In this document: positions 17,062 through 30,973 of the stretch, in pieces | Layout of the letters: each line of letters opens with the position of its first letter | How positions within the stretch are numbered: position 1 is the first letter of the stretch | Assembly (NCBI RefSeq): GCF_002967075.1 | Contig: NZ_PUGE01000001.1 | Coordinates: 310,001-374,000, forward strand | Direction: 5' to 3' | Length of the DNA stretch: 64,000 bases | From: Corynebacterium sp. J010B-136 | GTDB taxonomy: Bacteria > Actinomycetota > Actinomycetes > Mycobacteriales > Mycobacteriaceae | The notes under the pieces: generated by a model | Databases searched by the model: none | Told to the model about the DNA's origin: nothing | What the model saw: only the letters and a program-made list of their open reading frames with translations | Translations under genes and position numbers: made by a program

Positions 17062-17838
17062 ATGTCCGGCCCAAACTATGAGCAGCAGCCACAGGCGGAT
17101 TATTCCACCCAAAGCTATGCCGAATACCAAGAATCCCTCAAGCAGAATGCGGTATTTGCCTCCGACCGGAAGCCAGAGAAAAAGCAGAAAAAATCCGGCG
17201 GGAATCGAAATAAAATCATTGCTATTGCTGCCATGGTGATTGTTATCGGCGGCGCTATTGGTTTTAATAGCGTGTGGGATTCAGAGATGGATGAAAAAGT
17301 CCAGGACGGCATTACTGATGGAATCAGCGGTGCCATCGATGAAGGCAGCAACCGCATCAATGAGCTCAATGCATCAACCGATGGAGAGTTAGCCTTGATC
17401 GCTGCCCGCGAAGCACTTGAGCAAAGTCATTATTCGGAATCCGAGCTCGCCGAATATCTCACCAGCCCATATGGCGAGGTCTACACCGACCAAGCTGCGC
17501 AATACGCGCTGGATAATATCGATGCCGATTGGAATGCCGAAGCCTTAGAGGCCGCCGAAAGCTATCTGCGACACAGCCACTACTCTTATGAAGGTTTGCA
17601 CCACCAGCTCAGCGCTGAGTCAGCAGATAACTTCACTGATGCCCAGGCGCGGTATGCGGTAGATAATGTCGAAGCCGACTGGGATGCCGAGGCCGTTGAG
17701 GCCGCCGAATCCTACTGGAGCAATGACAATATTGATATAACCCCTGATGAGCTGCGCGATATTTTGGTCTCCGATACCATCGGCCGGTTTACCGACCAGC
17801 AGGCTGACCACGCGTTAGCCGAACTGGGCATTTCTTAA
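17062..17838 (+). CDS. Membrane-anchored Ltp-family protein (host cell surface-exposed lipoprotein repeats)
   Basis: 258 residues: a hydrophilic Gln/Tyr-rich N-terminus, a Lys-rich stop (EKKQKKSGGNRNK), one membrane helix at about 51-68, and then three tandem Ltp repeats (about 108-155, 155-205, 205-256). The repeats end in patterns such as AQYALDNIDADWNAEALEAAESYL. No lipobox cysteine is present, so the protein is a single-pass membrane protein with the repeats outside. Ltp repeats occur in Gram-positive surface proteins and in phage superinfection-exclusion lipoproteins; cellular function is unknown. A good GGAGGA lies 7 nt before the ATG. A second paralogue follows on the same strand. Confidence 0.8.
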   Translation: MSGPNYEQQPQADYSTQSYAEYQESLKQNAVFASDRKPEKKQKKSGGNRNKIIAIAAMVIVIGGAIGFNSVWDSEMDEKVQDGITDGISGAIDEGSNRINELNASTDGELALIAAREALEQSHYSESELAEYLTSPYGEVYTDQAAQYALDNIDADWNAEALEAAESYLRHSHYSYEGLHHQLSAESADNFTDAQARYAVDNVEADWDAEAVEAAESYWSNDNIDITPDELRDILVSDTIGRFTDQQADHALAELGIS

Positions 17839-18014: not shown

Positions 18015-18806
18015 ATGTCTGGCTCCCAGCCCAACCCCTATGGAACCTTTCCCCAGGATTCCCAGTCCCCTAACTTCGCCCCGCAAGACTCCGCGAAACC
18101 TAAGAAGAAAAAGCGCGGCTTTCTAAAATGGGGCGTCGGTATCGTTGCAGTCGTTGTTCTCTTCAGTGCTTTTACCAACAATGATGATGACGATGACGTA
18201 GCCACCACCACCGACGATTCCGCCGATACCAACAAGAGCGTCGACTTGGTTGCCGAAGCAGAAGCCGAGGCTGAGCCAGAAGCAGCAGGTGGCGCAGACA
18301 CCGCGGCAGAAAACCCTGACTCTGCTGCCGCCGAGGTTGACGACAATGTTTCCAAAGAATTTCAGAATGCACTGCGCTCAGCTGAACGCTACCTGGACTT
18401 CAGCTCCTTTTCGTACCAGGGTCTCTATGACCAATCGACGTCCGAATACGCCGATGCGTACCCAGCCGATGCAGCCCAATACGCCGTGGACACTGTCACC
18501 GTTGATTGGAACACTGAAGCACTTGAGTCCGCTGAGAACTACCTTGAGTTCAGCCACTTCTCCTACCAGGGGCTCTACGACCAGCTCACTTCTGAATACG
18601 GCGAGCAGTTCACCCCCGAACAAGCGCAGTACGCGGTAGATACCGTTGACGCAGACTGGAACGCCGAGGCTGTTGAGGCCGCTGAAAGCTACCAGGAACT
18701 CATGCCAATGTCGGGTACTGAATTGCTCAACCAGCTCACCTCCGATTACGGCGAGAAGTTCACCCCGGAGCAAGCTCAGCACGCCGTCACTGCAGTTGGC
18801 CTCTAG
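18015..18806 (+). CDS. Second Ltp-family membrane-anchored protein
   Basis: 263 residues with a Pro/Gln/Ser-rich N-terminus, a KPKKKKRG basic stop, a membrane helix at about 37-54, an Asp-run and a 50-residue acidic Ala/Glu linker, then three Ltp repeats with the pattern FSYQGLYDQLTSEYGEQFTP followed by AQYAVDTVDADWNAEAVE. It is a diverged paralogue of the preceding gene: same architecture, longer acidic spacer, closer repeat-to-repeat identity. Surface display is predicted. It is separated from the first gene by 176 nt containing nested inverted repeats, so it is probably regulated separately. Confidence 0.8.
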   Translation: MSGSQPNPYGTFPQDSQSPNFAPQDSAKPKKKKRGFLKWGVGIVAVVVLFSAFTNNDDDDDVATTTDDSADTNKSVDLVAEAEAEAEPEAAGGADTAAENPDSAAAEVDDNVSKEFQNALRSAERYLDFSSFSYQGLYDQSTSEYADAYPADAAQYAVDTVTVDWNTEALESAENYLEFSHFSYQGLYDQLTSEYGEQFTPEQAQYAVDTVDADWNAEAVEAAESYQELMPMSGTELLNQLTSDYGEKFTPEQAQHAVTAVGL

Positions 18807-25259: not shown

Positions 25260-26237
25260 ATGAATGTCATTGTTGATACCATCGCGAAGGTTGCCGGCCT
25301 GCAGCCGCCTTCCCTCCCGCAGCTTTCCTTAGTAAATGTTCCAGATATCTCTGCGGTCTCACCGCTGGCAAACATTGCGGGAACCGACCCCAGCAAGATG
25401 CTAAGTGCTGCCGGCGTGCTGGAAAAAGATCAGGACACCATCCGCCGCATCGCCGGTGAAGCCAGCGGCTTAATTGGCGCCTGCGCGCAGGATCTCATTG
25501 GGCTGGCTATGGAATTGGCCTCGCGCGCTGTGCCATTAGCAGTTGGACTATTGGTTCCCCACCCCGCTGCGCGCCTGGGTGCAGAGGCGGCCTTAAAAGC
25601 GTTGGCAATGGAATACCTTGGCCGGGCTGTAGCGCGTACCGGCAGCCTGGTCAATGAACTAGCGGCGATTAGCGCACCGCTGGCCGAGATCGCGACGCGT
25701 ACTATTTCCTCACACGTCGATGGCGGACAACCCGCGTTAAAGGAACTTCAAGCAGTCTCTGGGCAAGCAGGTTTTACTCCCGCAGGTTCCACAACGGCAA
25801 GCTCGTCGGCAGCGGGCGTTGCTCCCATGGCCGAAGAAGATACAGCAGGCTCTGTCGCCGGGGCTTCGTCTACGTCAGGTTCTTCCACGGGGTCTGCGGC
25901 GGGTGAAAAGGCAGTTGATACTGCTCTATCTATGGTCGGAACCCCGTATGTATGGGGTGGGACTACCCCACAAGGATTCGACTGCTCGGGTCTTACCCAA
26001 TATGCCTACCGCGCAGCCGGGGTAGATATCCCGCGTTTGGCAGAAGAACAAACCGTGGGCACTCAGGTCAGCGCCGACGAGCTGGTCAAAGGCGATTTAG
26101 TGGTCTGGGATGGGCATGTTGCTATGTACGCCGGTGATGGACAAATTGTCGAAGCCGGCGACCCAGTTCAGGTCAATCCCCTGCGAACCTCCAACATGGG
26201 GATGGAATTCAAGGGCTTCTGGCGTCCGACTTCTTAG
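25260..26237 (+). CDS. NlpC/P60 (C40) peptidoglycan hydrolase without signal peptide
   Basis: 325 residues. Residues 1-150 are helical and Ala-rich with no Sec signal; 150-215 is a Ser/Thr/Gly/Ala linker; 216-325 is a complete NlpC/P60 endopeptidase domain with Cys242 (GFDCSG), His286 (DGHVAMY) and Glu298, the same 12-residue His-Glu spacing as in mycobacterial RipA. The expected activity is cleavage of the gamma-D-Glu-diaminopimelate bond in peptidoglycan stems, which needs export. Coupling to an EspC-like gene and the absence of a signal peptide suggest type VII export; this is inference. GGGATAAAG precedes the ATG. Confidence 0.85.
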   Translation: MNVIVDTIAKVAGLQPPSLPQLSLVNVPDISAVSPLANIAGTDPSKMLSAAGVLEKDQDTIRRIAGEASGLIGACAQDLIGLAMELASRAVPLAVGLLVPHPAARLGAEAALKALAMEYLGRAVARTGSLVNELAAISAPLAEIATRTISSHVDGGQPALKELQAVSGQAGFTPAGSTTASSSAAGVAPMAEEDTAGSVAGASSTSGSSTGSAAGEKAVDTALSMVGTPYVWGGTTPQGFDCSGLTQYAYRAAGVDIPRLAEEQTVGTQVSADELVKGDLVVWDGHVAMYAGDGQIVEAGDPVQVNPLRTSNMGMEFKGFWRPTS

Positions 26238-26259
26238 GCTTTGGGTAGAATTATCGCCC

Positions 26260-27498
26260 ATGAGCTCACGCGCGATTGTTCCGATTAAAATTTCTTTAAC
26301 TGAAGGCGACTACTATACTCTTTGGGCCCCGAAATGGCGCCAGCAAGGCACCGAATGGCAGGCCCTTTTAGGCGATGATGAATCTGTCTTGGGCTTTCGC
26401 ACTGAAGCAGAGCTTTTGACCTTCATTGAATCCGATAAACCACATGATCTTAAAGACCACCCAGAGTGGGAAGAGTTTAATCAGGGTCCAGCAAACCGCG
26501 TCAGCCCCGAAGAGCGTGATACCTACGATCTCATCGGAACTCCAGAATTTTTAGCCGGCCGCCCGAGCCACACCAATATCTCCGCTGTGGCACGCAACTT
26601 CCAGATGGCAGAGGTCATCGCATCAGTTACAGCTGCGCAACAAACCAGCATTTTCTTCGCCAGCCACTCCCTGCTGCGCAACGCTGCACGCGGTTTGGAC
26701 CATTTCTCTGGCGAGCAAGGTTTGCAGGAATGGACTGCAATTGGTCGCATTGTCTTGACCAATTGGCAAAAAGTCATTGATGACCTCGACGCCCAGGTCC
26801 GCATCGTGCCTTCTACTGAGTTCAACGAAGACACGGTTACCTCCGCTGCATCAAAGATTTCCACTGCGAAACAGGCTGCTCAAGAAAAGCGCGAACAATT
26901 AGAACAGCAGCGCAAGGAAGAAAAGCAGGCGGCAGATCCTTATGATGGATCCGCGTGGGCTGCTGCCGGTATCGACCCAGTCAAAATCACCATCGATGCA
27001 CGTTCGGTTTACACCCTGCGCACTTATATCGGTGAATCCCCCGTCTTTTTGGGCAAGTGGGGCGAAATCTTCACCTTCCCATCGTCCAAGCAGCTCATGC
27101 GTTGGATCATGGAAAATGATGATCACGACCTAGCACGCGTTAGCACCTGGGAAGAATTGGTCACCGCGGCAAATGCCGGCGAACTCGAATTTATAGTTCA
27201 CCCAGATAACCAGTACACCTTCAATGGCATCGTGCGTGATATCACCAAGGGCCCAGAAGCTGTTGATGCACAGCAGATGAGCAGCTGCTATGAAATCTGC
27301 GCGGATGCTGCTGACTGGGCCGGAGATGACTCGATTAACTCGTATATGCTGCAGCACCCACGTTTCCAGGACTACCTGGGATACATGCTGGGTTCAACCG
27401 AGACCGCAGGTTATGTTCCTTCCAAGCCCTTCAATGATCACGCAGAGGCGTGGAAGGGCCTCGAAGAAATGCTGACGAAGCGTTTTTCGAAGTTCTAA
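26260..27498 (+). CDS. Conserved hypothetical protein with an internal duplication
   Basis: 412 residues, acidic, soluble, with no signal peptide. Residues about 7-73 and 239-301 look like copies of one unit: both run from a hydrophobic P-(I/V)-K-I strand through Y-T-L, a W and an F-x-(S/T) segment to an HDL....WEE ending. Residues about 203-232 form a charged coiled-coil-like helix rich in Glu, Gln and Lys. I know similar actinobacterial proteins only as hypothetical. The ATG at 26260 gives an MSSRAIVPIKI start; an upstream extension overlapping the hydrolase is rejected. It follows the NlpC/P60 gene by 22 nt and may be co-transcribed. Confidence 0.75.
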   Translation: MSSRAIVPIKISLTEGDYYTLWAPKWRQQGTEWQALLGDDESVLGFRTEAELLTFIESDKPHDLKDHPEWEEFNQGPANRVSPEERDTYDLIGTPEFLAGRPSHTNISAVARNFQMAEVIASVTAAQQTSIFFASHSLLRNAARGLDHFSGEQGLQEWTAIGRIVLTNWQKVIDDLDAQVRIVPSTEFNEDTVTSAASKISTAKQAAQEKREQLEQQRKEEKQAADPYDGSAWAAAGIDPVKITIDARSVYTLRTYIGESPVFLGKWGEIFTFPSSKQLMRWIMENDDHDLARVSTWEELVTAANAGELEFIVHPDNQYTFNGIVRDITKGPEAVDAQQMSSCYEICADAADWAGDDSINSYMLQHPRFQDYLGYMLGSTETAGYVPSKPFNDHAEAWKGLEEMLTKRFSKF

Positions 27499-27507
27499 CT
27501 CCGCCAG

Positions 27508-28656
27508 CTAATCCGTTTCCAAAGCTTCACGCAGCGCCGCAATAAGATCTGCGTGAAGCTTTGCTGTTTTCTCCGACTGTGGCGCCAGGTGGTCGAACCC
27601 GTGATAGGCACCCTCATAAGAAATAAATTCCACGGGAACGCCGGCTTTATCTAAGCGCTGCGCGAAGGTTAAAGCCTCGGGGTAAAACAAGTCCAAATCC
27701 CCAATGCCAATCCACGTCGGCGGGCAATCTGTGAGGTCCTCGCGATACAGCGGTGACGCATAGGGCGCTAATTCTGAGTCCAAATGGTCATTGCCTAAAT
27801 ACAGGTTCCATGCTGCGGCATTCAACCGCGCGGTCCAGATAAACTGCCCCCATGAGCGCTCATGGGCATCAAATCCCGCGCTAGAGACATTGCCGCTTTG
27901 GTGGTCCAGCATGGGATAGACCAAGCCTTGAAAGGCAACGGGGTGCCCGTCATCAATCGCCCGCTGCACGATGCCTGCCGCCAGACCACCACCAGCGCTA
28001 TCGCCACACACGGCAATGCGCTGCGGATCAACTCCCAATTCTTCCGCATTATCTTGCACCCAACGCACCAGCGCATAGCAATCATCAAGGTCCGCCGGAA
28101 AAGGAGCTTGATTGGCTTTCCGGTAGCTCGGCGCGAAGACCGAGATATTTAATTCATCAGCAATCTTCGCGTTCTGTGGGTCATAAAATCCGGGCGTACC
28201 AATCAGGTGCCCGCCGCCATGCGTCCAGATCATCGCTGGGCGCAGGGGTGCTGGAGCAGATGCTCCAGCACCCCTTAACCGTTGCGGCACAATATGCCGC
28301 GCGCTAAACGGATGCCCATCATCAGGGCTTTCACCATCAATGAGGCGGATGTCAACGTCGCGGTCGGTCTCTCTAATCGCATCAATTTTAGAGACCAAAC
28401 CCATGATAAATAACATCAACGCCGGCGAAATAACGTGGTTGGGAAGATACAACGACCAAGTCCGCAACTCAGGATCCACCTGGCGCAGATACGGCTCCCG
28501 GCTTTCCTTATAAGCCTTGAGCCCCGCACCTAAAGCCCCGACGCTAAAAGCGCCCACACCAAGGGCCACGGCAGCGGACGCAATTTCACGTGCCTTAGGC
28601 GTCGTCTTCAGGTTCTTGGGCGTCTTCGGCAAACTCGGTGTCAGAAAGTTCTTCAT
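27508..28656 (-). CDS. Alpha/beta hydrolase (HSL/esterase type)
   Basis: 382 residues. Hormone-sensitive-lipase-type esterase fold: oxyanion motif HGGGH, nucleophile motif GDSAGGG, a late D in IGIGDLDLFYPEAL and the final GAYHGFDH with the catalytic His. Substrate unknown; probably short acyl esters. The N-terminus contains a hydrophobic Ala/Gly-rich stretch (AAVALGVGAFSVGALGAGL) that may be a membrane anchor. If the ATG at 28656 is used, the gene overlaps the end of the preceding gene by 62 nt; in-frame TTG codons downstream are alternatives and no ribosome site decides. The 3' end converges on the duplicated protein gene 9 nt away. Confidence 0.8.
   Translation of the reverse strand: MKNFLTPSLPKTPKNLKTTPKAREIASAAVALGVGAFSVGALGAGLKAYKESREPYLRQVDPELRTWSLYLPNHVISPALMLFIMGLVSKIDAIRETDRDVDIRLIDGESPDDGHPFSARHIVPQRLRGAGASAPAPLRPAMIWTHGGGHLIGTPGFYDPQNAKIADELNISVFAPSYRKANQAPFPADLDDCYALVRWVQDNAEELGVDPQRIAVCGDSAGGGLAAGIVQRAIDDGHPVAFQGLVYPMLDHQSGNVSSAGFDAHERSWGQFIWTARLNAAAWNLYLGNDHLDSELAPYASPLYREDLTDCPPTWIGIGDLDLFYPEALTFAQRLDKAGVPVEFISYEGAYHGFDHLAPQSEKTAKLHADLIAALREALETD
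27521..27566 (+). terminator. Terminator embedded in the hydrolase 3' coding end
   Basis: Arms AAAGCTTCACGCAG (27521-27534) and 27549-27562 are perfect 14-bp complements with a 14-nt loop, followed by GCTGTTTT. It suits termination of the rightward gene ending at 27498, yet lies wholly inside the leftward hydrolase coding sequence. Confidence 0.7.
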
Positions 28657-29518
28657 AAGCAGGCAAGATCACGCTTTCAATCAGGTGCTGGCGATGTTCC
28701 TGGGTACTAAAGCTATTTTGCATCGCAGCCACGGTCAGCTCAAAGAATTCCTCCAGGCCATAACCTAAAGCTTCATTGAGCGAGACAAATTGCTCGGTCA
28801 ATGCAGATTCTCCCACCGCGCAGGTAAAGCCCAACTGCTGCAACAGCGGCAAGGGGTGATCCGCCAAAGAATCTACTTCCTCGGCGGCGATATTTTCATC
28901 GGGAGTAATCTCCACCGCGATGTGTCGATCCCGAATCCAGCTGGTCAGCTTACCTGGGGCAATTCCTTCGACAGTCGCGGAAAAGTCATCGATGATATCC
29001 ACACCAGCAGCAATGCGGGTAGCACCAGCTTTAACGCCAGCTTCAATATCGTCAAAGCCACCATCGATGACAAAAGGTACGAAACTATCCTGCAGCTTGG
29101 CCAAAACCCCTGCGTGCGCGGCAACATTCTCGCCAACTAGCGCAAAGCCCGCGACCTCGTCGTGGGCAATGGCAGCATCGGCAATCTCTGCGACATTCGC
29201 TGCTTGGGTATCGGCGCTCAGGATAATGCGTGCATCGACGTCGTGGGAATGAAGCGCGGAAGTGGCCTGCGCGATGACATCGCTAAGCAATGCTTCACTT
29301 GTCGATGCATCGTCTGCGTCCGCAAAATCATTCGGGTTTAAGCGCAACTCGGCGTAAATCACATTATCGGCCTGCAGCTTGTCCAGGACGGTTTTCACGG
29401 CGTCAGAAACACTGTGCCCTGCGGCAACCTTCGCAGCAAGGGCTACTTTGGGCAAGGAAGCCAAAGTGTCGGCGGAAGAATCTTTGTTTTCTGGGCTAAT
29501 TAAAGGTGCGTCATACAT
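28595..29518 (-). CDS. Degenerate adenosine-deaminase-like protein, probably not a deaminase
   Basis: 307 residues whose overall pattern follows adenosine deaminase (YAELRLNP, then strand/helix pairs, and a C-terminal LTEQFVSLNEALGYGLEEFFELTVAAMQNSF segment quoted in part). The N-terminal H-x-H zinc motif is absent; the HAGE motif is replaced by VIDGG; the following RIGHG by RIAAG; and the late T-D-D-P by a VGES-like segment. The zinc site and catalytic acid are therefore missing. By position beside upp it corresponds to mycobacterial add. The ATG at 29518 has AGGA 8 nt upstream; earlier ATGs at 29527 and 29554 are poorly placed. Function unknown. Confidence 0.7.
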   Translation of the reverse strand: MYDAPLISPENKDSSADTLASLPKVALAAKVAAGHSVSDAVKTVLDKLQADNVIYAELRLNPNDFADADDASTSEALLSDVIAQATSALHSHDVDARIILSADTQAANVAEIADAAIAHDEVAGFALVGENVAAHAGVLAKLQDSFVPFVIDGGFDDIEAGVKAGATRIAAGVDIIDDFSATVEGIAPGKLTSWIRDRHIAVEITPDENIAAEEVDSLADHPLPLLQQLGFTCAVGESALTEQFVSLNEALGYGLEEFFELTVAAMQNSFSTQEHRQHLIESVILPAYEELSDTEFAEDAQEPEDDA

Positions 29519-29557
29519 GGGAGCCATCCTAAGCCTGAGCCTAAGATATTGCATACA

Positions 29558-30973
29558 ATGACTGTCTTTTCCTCTCGCACTACCACTTCCGAAGCTAAAC
29601 CCACTGGTACTGGAACTACTCCACGACGCTTGCGGTTATCGTTGAATACCTTTGTTGCCACCGCAGTCAGCGCGGCAATTCTTAGCACCTCCGTCCCGGC
29701 GGTGTTGGCGCAAGATTTAGAACCCACAGAACAGGGTCTTACTGGGGTATTTGATGGGCTTTTCGATGACACCCCGCTAGGCGAAGAGGAAGAAGATGCA
29801 CCTGCTTCATCGACCCGCGAGGCCGCACCCAATACTGATAATTGCCCGCAGGCACTGCTTCCCCCAGAACCTGTCACAACCTCTGAAGTAGTAGCACCTG
29901 GTCAGCAATCCCCAGCGCCTTTGCCCGAGGTGCAAGATTCCAACTGTGGAGTGCAAGCTCCTGCTGGATTCGACGTCAATGATGACGTGCGCGCATCCGC
30001 GTGGATGGTCTCTGACCTGGATACCGGGGAGATTGTAGCGATGAAAGATCCCCACGGCCGCTATCGTCCGGCTTCTATTCTTAAAGTCCTGCTGGCGCTC
30101 GAGGCTATCGATGAGTTGGATTTGAAGAAGGTGGTCATTGGCACCGACGAAGATGCAGCTATCGATGGCTCCGCCGTGGGCCTTGGCCCCGGGGGCCGCT
30201 ATACCGTCGAGCAGCTTTTGCAAGGCCTACTTATGGCCTCTGGCAATGATGCCGCGCACGCGTTGGCGCAACAGCTCGGCGGCGATGAGGAGACTTTAAC
30301 CAAGATCAACAAGCTCGCGACTGATCTGGGTGCTCGCTCTACCTTCGCGGCTAGCTACTCTGGCCTCGATGCACCAGGTATGTCTACCTCGGCAGCCGAT
30401 ATGGCGCTGCTTTATACCGCAGCTTTTGAAAACCCCACCTTTGCTCGCATCGTGGGCACCGACAGCGTGAAATTTCCCGGCTACGGTGATTTAGAAGGCT
30501 ACGAGCTGGGCAATGACAATGGCCTCTTTATGAATGACCCCGATGGAATTGGTGGTAAGACCGGCTATACCGATGATGCCAACCACACCTTCGTTGGTGC
30601 CTTAGACCGCGATGGGCGCCGGCTGATGGCGGTCATTTTGGACACCACCATCGACCACGGTCCCCGTGCGTGGGAGCAAGCACAAATGCTTCTCGATGAA
30701 GCCTATAAGATTCCCGCCGGCCAAGGCGTCTCGTCTCTGGAGGAAACAGAGAAAATCACCAAAGAAGAAGAAACACCTGCTGCTACCGCAACAGCGGCGA
30801 ATGCAGAAAATGTATCAGCACCTGATGCGGCATCGGCAGCAGAAAGCCCCACTCACCCAACCTGGATGCCGTGGCTGATTGTGGCCGGTGTAGCAGTGCT
30901 GGTTCTTGTAATTATTTCTTCTTTACTACTTCTGCGTTCGCCCAGCGGTCGTGGGCGCCACGCTGCTCGTTAG
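29558..30973 (+). CDS. dacA: D-alanyl-D-alanine carboxypeptidase (PBP5/DacA type)
   Basis: 471 residues of the S11 penicillin-binding family, which trims the terminal D-Ala from peptidoglycan stem peptides. Seen: a Sec signal or N-terminal membrane segment (TFVATAVSAAILSTSVPAVLA, about 31-51), an acidic Pro-rich region to about 135, the S-x-x-K motif SILK with Ser173 and Lys176, SGN at 228-230, KTG at 334-336, a Glu/Ala-rich linker and a C-terminal membrane helix before a basic RGRHAAR tail. The start ATG lies just after TAAGAT at 29542, possibly a leaderless promoter, and 39 nt from the divergent gene's start. Confidence 0.92.
   Translation: MTVFSSRTTTSEAKPTGTGTTPRRLRLSLNTFVATAVSAAILSTSVPAVLAQDLEPTEQGLTGVFDGLFDDTPLGEEEEDAPASSTREAAPNTDNCPQALLPPEPVTTSEVVAPGQQSPAPLPEVQDSNCGVQAPAGFDVNDDVRASAWMVSDLDTGEIVAMKDPHGRYRPASILKVLLALEAIDELDLKKVVIGTDEDAAIDGSAVGLGPGGRYTVEQLLQGLLMASGNDAAHALAQQLGGDEETLTKINKLATDLGARSTFAASYSGLDAPGMSTSAADMALLYTAAFENPTFARIVGTDSVKFPGYGDLEGYELGNDNGLFMNDPDGIGGKTGYTDDANHTFVGALDRDGRRLMAVILDTTIDHGPRAWEQAQMLLDEAYKIPAGQGVSSLEETEKITKEEETPAATATAANAENVSAPDAASAAESPTHPTWMPWLIVAGVAVLVLVIISSLLLLRSPSGRGRHAAR

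Follow-up and report, generated by a model that had tools for sequence, protein, structure and literature searches.

A conserved, predicted non-catalytic relative of adenosine deaminase in Corynebacterium and the repeated loss of its catalytic residues

Pseudoenzymes can work by scaffolding or allosteric regulation, as PMC10211241 states. In fungal Dis3L2/Ssd1, the active site was lost at least four times with a non-nuclease role retained, according to PMC8097288, and mammalian adenosine deaminase (ADA) is described as moonlighting via CD26 and adenosine receptors in PMC5818423. A selection scan reported positive selection on add in the C. pseudotuberculosis lineage and described the gene by its enzymatic role (PMC8857904). 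A description of a bacterial or corynebacterial pseudo-ADA was not found in the open-access PubMed Central literature searched. Here, we describe such a gene in a 64,000-nucleotide stretch of Corynebacterium sp. J010B-136 (contig NZ_PUGE01000001.1, positions 310,001 to 374,000), hereafter the window. The gene lies in the slot trpS-dacB-satS-upp, and its product, pseudo-ADA, is, judging from sequence and a structural model, a pseudoenzyme, with an enzyme-family fold, no catalytic motifs and a sequence kept by selection.

Fold, active site and selection

The window protein matches the Pfam A_deaminase family (PF00962; E 2.2e-17, 63.6 bits against a cut-off of 27), and the outline likeness to ADA that the first-pass annotation had read from the DNA letters is thus real, with the match spanning profile positions 74–328 only. 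All 24 members of alignment A3 match PF00962 at E ≤ 0.01. In the predicted structure, an ADA-type β/α barrel is kept. The best AlphaFold2 model (24 rows) reached a predicted local distance difference test score (pLDDT) of 89.9 and a predicted template modelling score of 0.86; the 50 Foldseek matches listed were all ADA-family structures (best 7.2e-14), and VIA-align gave Z > 28 to ADAs, with 257–273 residues at 2.1–3.4 Å. Residues 1–11 fell below a pLDDT of 50, although their sequence is conserved, and they are probably flexible because of this low model confidence.

We compared the protein with catalytic and corynebacterial orthologues at H15, H17, H214, E217, H238, and D295, which we take to be the six metal-binding and catalytic positions in mouse ADA numbering. 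The alignment comprised 111 rows from the same slot in 109 genomes, of which 35 rows (33 genomes) carry the full catalytic pattern. At these positions the window protein has A28, K30, D152, a gap, A171, and a gap, so that the HxH zinc pair, HAGE, the catalytic His of GHG, and the zinc Asp of NTD(N/D) are absent. The first-pass annotation had reported a missing HxH pair and a missing HAGE motif, and both losses stand in the alignment (A28 and K30 for the former, D152 and a gap for the latter). It had also reported a missing late Asp-Asp; the motif is indeed absent, but the intact rows read Asp-Asn in 35 of 35 cases and Asp-Asp in none. We looked for zinc ligands elsewhere in the protein, which would have spoken against the loss, and saw none. 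Its only histidine in the invariant lists of alignments A2 and A3 is H221, in a DHP motif that catalytic ADAs also carry. From the H17 position to strand 2, the protein has 25 residues versus about 80 in enzymes, and it lacks about 55 residues that would cover the active site. From this comparison, we infer that the window protein would neither bind a catalytic zinc nor deaminate adenosine.

The protein does not pass the NCBIfam ADA equivalog NF006847 (133.2 bits versus a cut-off of 412) and likewise fails TIGR01430 (50.1 versus 216.55 bits); three catalytic Corynebacterium orthologues pass NF006847 with 473–579 bits. A full-length ADA from another genome (G163, locus L142), in which only D295 and its neighbour are changed and the zinc Asp is Gly, scored 480 with NF006847, a pass, and 201.9 with TIGR01430, a failure. 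Because it passes NF006847 despite the Gly, this cut-off is no clean test of activity or of a lost site.

Selection was assessed by the ratio of nonsynonymous to synonymous substitution rates (dN/dS). Against three relatives, the window protein gave 0.072, 0.107, and 0.095, compared with 0.103, 0.115, and 0.124 for dacB and about 0.03 for trpS. The median was 0.11 in 124 close pairs of damaged genes versus 0.17 in 421 catalytic pairs, pairs that share species and are not independent. When 18 pairs were chosen across separate damaged clades, 17 gave values of 0.047–0.282 and one was saturated. Stop-to-stop frames of at least 295 codons were present in 77 of 77 non-catalytic proteins of the genus. 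In the window the frame is intact and the C-terminus acidic, as the first-pass annotation had it, and its reading of the gene as a conserved pseudoenzyme instead of a decaying one finds support in the frame, the dN/dS values, the synteny, the promoter conservation, and the recurrence in 77 of 129 genomes.

The distribution of constraint along the protein differs from that of the enzymes. We scored conservation in a pocket of 39 columns at the barrel mouth, picked by the analyst, with 5000 permutations that ignore relatedness. In catalytic proteins, the pocket columns averaged 0.929 versus 0.702 elsewhere; in the dead proteins of the window's group, they scored 0.515 versus 0.668, with 0 of 5000 permutations as low, and in a very divergent set 0.482 versus 0.590. 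Three other segments were more conserved in dead than in catalytic proteins, with relatedness uncorrected: residues 2–11 (0.85 versus 0.28), 222–231 (0.94 versus 0.81), and 252–261 (0.91 versus 0.67). Constraint has thus moved from the pocket to the N-terminal peptide and the C-terminal helices, as expected if the outer surface, and not the pocket, binds something.

Graded and repeated loss in Corynebacterium

A profile of the slot proteins matched 135 of 201 genus genomes and left 66 without a match. One further genome (G035, E 3e-4), the extra one in an earlier count of 136, had no match to this profile, and its hit was treated as chance. Of the roughly 135 genomes with the protein, 129 were read residue by residue; the six left out (G034, G069, G102, G113, G115, and G159) all have full-length PF00962 matches. 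All six catalytic residues are kept in 51 of the 129 proteins, 77 are non-catalytic, and one is split. The 78 that are not intact comprise 18 that keep HxH and have lost other residues, 43 that lack more, 16 that are very divergent, and the split gene (G176). By number of residues lost, the 77 fall into classes of one (n = 2), two (n = 14), three (n = 5), four (n = 10), five (n = 23), and six (n = 23), with alignment-dependent states in the most divergent proteins. The split gene (G176:C1:39897-40960, locus L121) is a catalytic-type ADA in two frames, through an assembly error or a recent break.

Intermediate states are found along this series. The zinc Asp is Gly in G163 and G174, and Asp295 to Gly is seen in separate lineages. 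G154 combines Glu217 to Ser and Asp295 to Gly with a cover cut to 43 residues, and C. lemuris (G061) and C. hylobatis (G018) keep the zinc histidines with Leu for the Glu and Gly for the Asp. Some lineages are of this HHHLHG type, in which both HxH histidines, H214, and H238 are kept. Five of the six residues are lost in the C. striatum, C. aurimucosum, and C. minutissimum genomes examined, and three and four in two C. tuberculostearicum genomes. A "late" dead group shares few of the motifs of the window clade.

The gene position that the first-pass annotation assigned to ADA is borne out across the genus: yhjD or dacB lies 5' of the gene in 119 of 119 genomes with a locus of at least 8 kb, and satS also lies 3' within the fetched flank in 102 of the 119. 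Among non-catalytic genomes with a long locus, 74 of 75 show the gene flanked by satS and, on its opposite side, by yhjD or dacB. Six genomes of other genera were read for gene content, not gene order; four hold trpS, yhjD, satS, and a motif-intact ADA in the fetched 20–32 kb (dacB in three), and the remaining two (g3) have their ADA match elsewhere. Across the family, a PF00962 match is present in 146 of 151 genomes, and among the matches listed those of other genera cover nearly the whole profile. The fetched regions of 20 genus genomes without the gene held no ADA-like frame (20 of 20), and 18 of them were readable between dacB and satS.

To place these losses on a tree, we ran IQ-TREE on concatenated neighbour proteins from 44 genomes (20 catalytic, 20 damaged, and 4 outgroup; LG+G4 without mixture). 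The non-catalytic genomes (20 of 77) and the catalytic ones (20 of 51) were picked after a larger tree had been seen. The 20 damaged genomes gave 7 changes of state, 5 of them forced by strongly supported branches, and their union into one clade was rejected (log-likelihood difference 1095; approximately unbiased test, p 1.1e-8). Without the three mildest cases (G080, G163, and G174), there were 5 changes, 4 of them forced, and one clade was again rejected (difference 208, p 3.7e-6). A loss-only count on the larger rooted FastTree gave 8 maximal clades with damaged proteins and no catalytic member, a number that stands on an imperfect root because the outgroup is not monophyletic. The sequence evidence thus indicates that catalysis has been lost repeatedly in Corynebacterium, with at least three to four lineages, or five to eight if only losses are allowed, appearing to have given up the chemistry while keeping the protein. 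The motif-intact G194 (locus L137) groups with the damaged G008 under strong support in a part of the tree where the other proteins are dead; it is either a late survivor or a regained copy, implying either more losses or a regain.

Non-catalytic loci also differ in their promoters. A bidirectional pattern of two −10-like elements, TAGGAT and TAAGAT, has one match in the window and 0 in 100 shuffles of it. Across the genus, it occurs at 32 of 71 non-catalytic loci versus 0 of 51 catalytic loci, and in 0 of 2440 shuffled regions; 7 of the 129 loci (six non-catalytic and G176) were skipped for a missing anchor motif. The start-adjacent −10 alone was found at 47 of 71 non-catalytic and 18 of 51 catalytic loci versus 38 of 2440 shuffled regions. 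These counts miss some visible promoters outside the regular expression, such as that of L157. The pseudo-ADA start is probably the ATG at 29518 because a conserved TAGGAT ends 7 bases upstream and the protein then begins with a conserved peptide (MYDAPLISPENK). The transcript is probably leaderless, and the compact bidirectional arrangement suggests control shared with dacB.

Candidate roles

We consider it probable, with moderate confidence, that pseudo-ADA is a conserved pseudoenzyme, the former ADA of the trpS-dacB-satS-upp slot, whose folded barrel binds another macromolecule. Zinc binding and deamination would be gone with the folded barrel retained, and the barrel would work through this binding in a scaffold or regulatory role. 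Its likely contact surface would be the flexible N-terminal peptide and the outer C-terminal helices, and not the barrel mouth. The ancestral corynebacterial ADA would already have carried a second, binding role, and lineages lacking the downstream purine-nucleoside route would have been able to do without catalysis. An ancestral second role is probable because the gene kept its slot and its frame through repeated losses of catalysis. DacB may be named as the binding partner only as a guess, made because it shares the promoter with pseudo-ADA. A broader proposal must be put more tentatively, as possible but doubtful, namely that the family's housekeeping ADA is bifunctional: surface binding would be selected in Corynebacterium and deamination dispensable, several lineages would have dropped the chemistry, and the catalytic orthologues of the genus, perhaps also of sister genera, would moonlight too.

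As for the purine route, the PunA phosphorylase (TIGR01697) is present in 32 of 201 genus genomes, 31 of them with a motif-intact ADA and the other being G176 with its split gene; it was found together with a dead ADA in none of the 201. The link between PunA and ADA is weak because 20 of the 51 intact genomes lack PunA and because PunA occurs in few related clades, and a missing PunA route is suggestive only as the reason why catalysis could go.

The binding of a macromolecule has to be weighed against four other explanations. The barrel might have been recruited anew in each dead lineage, without a second role in the ancestor; we regard this as unlikely, though a serious contender, since the dead lineages differ greatly and the "late" group has few window-clade motifs, while the same slot, a similar trimmed size, and the same relaxed pocket recur in separate groups. 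A nucleoside or nucleotide sensor, in which catalysis is lost and a purine is still bound and reported to a partner, would agree with the ADA fold kept in the model. The HHHLHG lineages and the conserved pocket in the 18 HxH-keeping proteins agree with it too, and these proteins may have retained a site for a metal or ligand. The probability of a sensor appears low, as conservation in the fully dead proteins, that of the window included, is lowest at the pocket-mouth columns, and the pocket-lid residues are missing between the H17 position and strand 2. We infer that a protein-binding role fits best and nucleoside binding worse. Of the two functions proposed in the first-pass annotation, a new role therefore fits, and nucleoside binding is made less likely in the window's group by its pocket (0.515 versus 0.668) but not in the 18 HxH-keeping proteins.

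A new enzyme, performing a different reaction by residues elsewhere on the barrel, seems lower still in probability. Y55, E57, D178, D197, R198, R276, and H221 are invariant or nearly so in alignments A1 or A3 and could serve such a reaction, but in the model D197 and R198 directly precede strand 201–204 and R276 falls early in the final helix (273–300), whereas the active sites of barrels are found at the C-terminal ends of strands. D197 is probably structural because it is equally invariant in catalytic ADAs. That the gene is simply decaying on its way out is very improbable. Sixty-six of the 201 relatives have no match, evolution is faster in the partly damaged lineage, where close pairs reach a dN/dS of 0.64, and G008, G080, and G058 have no close damaged relative for a selection test; set against this are the dN/dS of the window protein (0.072–0.107), the median of 0.11 over 124 pairs, the frames of all 77 proteins, and lineage-specific conserved motifs. 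For the window's own clade, decay is refuted by the constraint values and the frames.

Several observations weigh against a conserved, macromolecule-binding pseudoenzyme with repeated origins. A dN/dS above 0.3 was obtained for 25 of the 124 damaged pairs, and members of the partly damaged lineage take part in each of the top eight. The 18 HxH-keeping proteins have a pocket that remains more conserved than their other columns (0.774 versus 0.699, p 0.009), and the permutation test behind such comparisons ignores relatedness and uses analyst-chosen columns. Only one of the five AlphaFold2 models is highly confident, the other four reaching 70–72. Changes of state are not the same as losses, and if G194 represents a regain of the site or the gene, the forced losses number about three to four. 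With 66 of 201 genus genomes lacking a match, the function is dispensable in many species. A partner sought by gene neighbourhood was not found: none of the neighbours examined co-varies with the gene, and dacB and satS persist in 18 of 20 regions without it. The absence of PunA from 20 of 51 motif-intact genomes also counts on this side.

Locus features and comparison with known systems

The coordinates of the locus are collected in the table below; the segments named in the window protein are DHPLPLLQQLGF and YGLEEFF. Pseudo-ADA is the sole PF00962 match over the cut-off in its genome, and a second working ADA elsewhere in the genome was ruled out on this ground; another hit (G000:C10:353345-353530), with E 0.13, did not reach the cut-off and was treated as chance. 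An annotation or frame error was also ruled out, as the start and promoter are conserved and orthologues align over the whole length. The longest esterase frame overlaps the 3' end of the pseudo-ADA gene by 62 bases (28595–28656), possibly with coupled translation.

Features of the pseudo-ADA locus, in window coordinates (ORF, open reading frame)
Feature	Position	Strand	Basis or remark
Pseudo-ADA, predicted non-catalytic ADA-fold protein, 307 aa	28595..29518	−	ORF, profile matches, alignment, model
ORF holding pseudo-ADA	28595–29554	−	
Codons 1–14, conserved N-terminal peptide MYDAPLISPENKDS	29477..29518	−	Mostly invariant in alignment A2
Codons 220–233, DHPLPLLQQLGFTC, conserved in dead proteins	28820..28861	−	Model helix 223–228 and strand 233–235
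Codons 253–259, YGLEEFF, conserved in dead proteins	28742..28762	−	Start of model helix 255–267
−10-like TAGGAT (29526–29531) and the 7 bases preceding the start codon	29519..29531	−	Consensus and conservation
Divergent −10-like TAAGAT for dacB, 10 bases from the pseudo-ADA −10	29542..29547	+	Pattern and conservation
dacB, D-alanyl-D-alanine carboxypeptidase (Peptidase S11), divergent neighbour	29558..30973	+	Start inferred; ORF from 29549
Abhydrolase_3 esterase, downstream, same strand as pseudo-ADA	27508..28656	−	Adjoins slot in some lineages only
satS-like gene, convergent neighbour, within ORF 26110–27498	26260..27498	+	NCBIfam NF050072, 304 bits, below cut-off 700

Some Corynebacterium without ADA carry a membrane protein gene between dacB and satS (L175, L179, L184, and L188), presumably VIT1/CCC1-like; the L184 copy had no NCBIfam match at E 1e-5. 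In G093, a second, partial pseudo-ADA fragment with a stop lies at a contig end (G093:C1:2433522-2433864) and is probably due to the end of the assembly. Elsewhere in the window are two adjoining PF07553 "host cell surface-exposed lipoprotein" genes (17062–17838 and 18015–18806, plus strand), each with three matched stretches.

What began as one odd gene thus appears to be a repeated conversion of an enzyme to a pseudoenzyme within one genus, in which a non-catalytic role probably preceded the loss. The orthologous slot holds a natural series, from intact proteins through D295 to Gly and zinc histidines kept with Glu and Asp lost, to the loss of all six residues. As this series has run more than once and has close catalytic relatives, the non-catalytic job of a metabolic enzyme becomes directly testable. 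Since the Pfam ADA model matches dead proteins, metabolic models of skin and clinical corynebacteria may hold a reaction that is probably absent, a caution that covers the genomes read from C. striatum, C. aurimucosum, C. tuberculostearicum, and C. minutissimum (three to five of six residues lost).

The actinobacterial Add-type ADA (PF00962; NF006847, TIGR01430) has its fold, gene slot, and orthology by position in common with pseudo-ADA. In contrast to it, pseudo-ADA lacks the zinc ligands, the catalytic Glu, Asp, and His, and the active-site cover, fails the equivalog cut-offs, and has its own conserved N-terminal peptide and C-terminal helix motifs. CARF-ADA (Cad1), ADGF/ADA2, and ADAL share the barrel among the structure matches and are titled as deaminases, a comparison made by title only. 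Mammalian ADA with CD26 (1w1i among the VIA-align matches) resembles the proposed role in that an ADA barrel serves as a protein-binding partner (PMC5818423). Unlike pseudo-ADA, the mammalian protein is catalytic, located at the cell surface, and eukaryotic, and the likeness carries no claim of a shared surface. The closest parallel to pseudo-ADA is the repeated inactivation of Dis3L2. In Ssd1/Dis3L2, the site was likewise lost repeatedly and independently with the protein kept, which is put down there to an ancestral second function (PMC8097288); these proteins differ from pseudo-ADA in an unrelated fold, in that some cases followed gene duplication, and in a known second function in RNA binding and cytokinesis.

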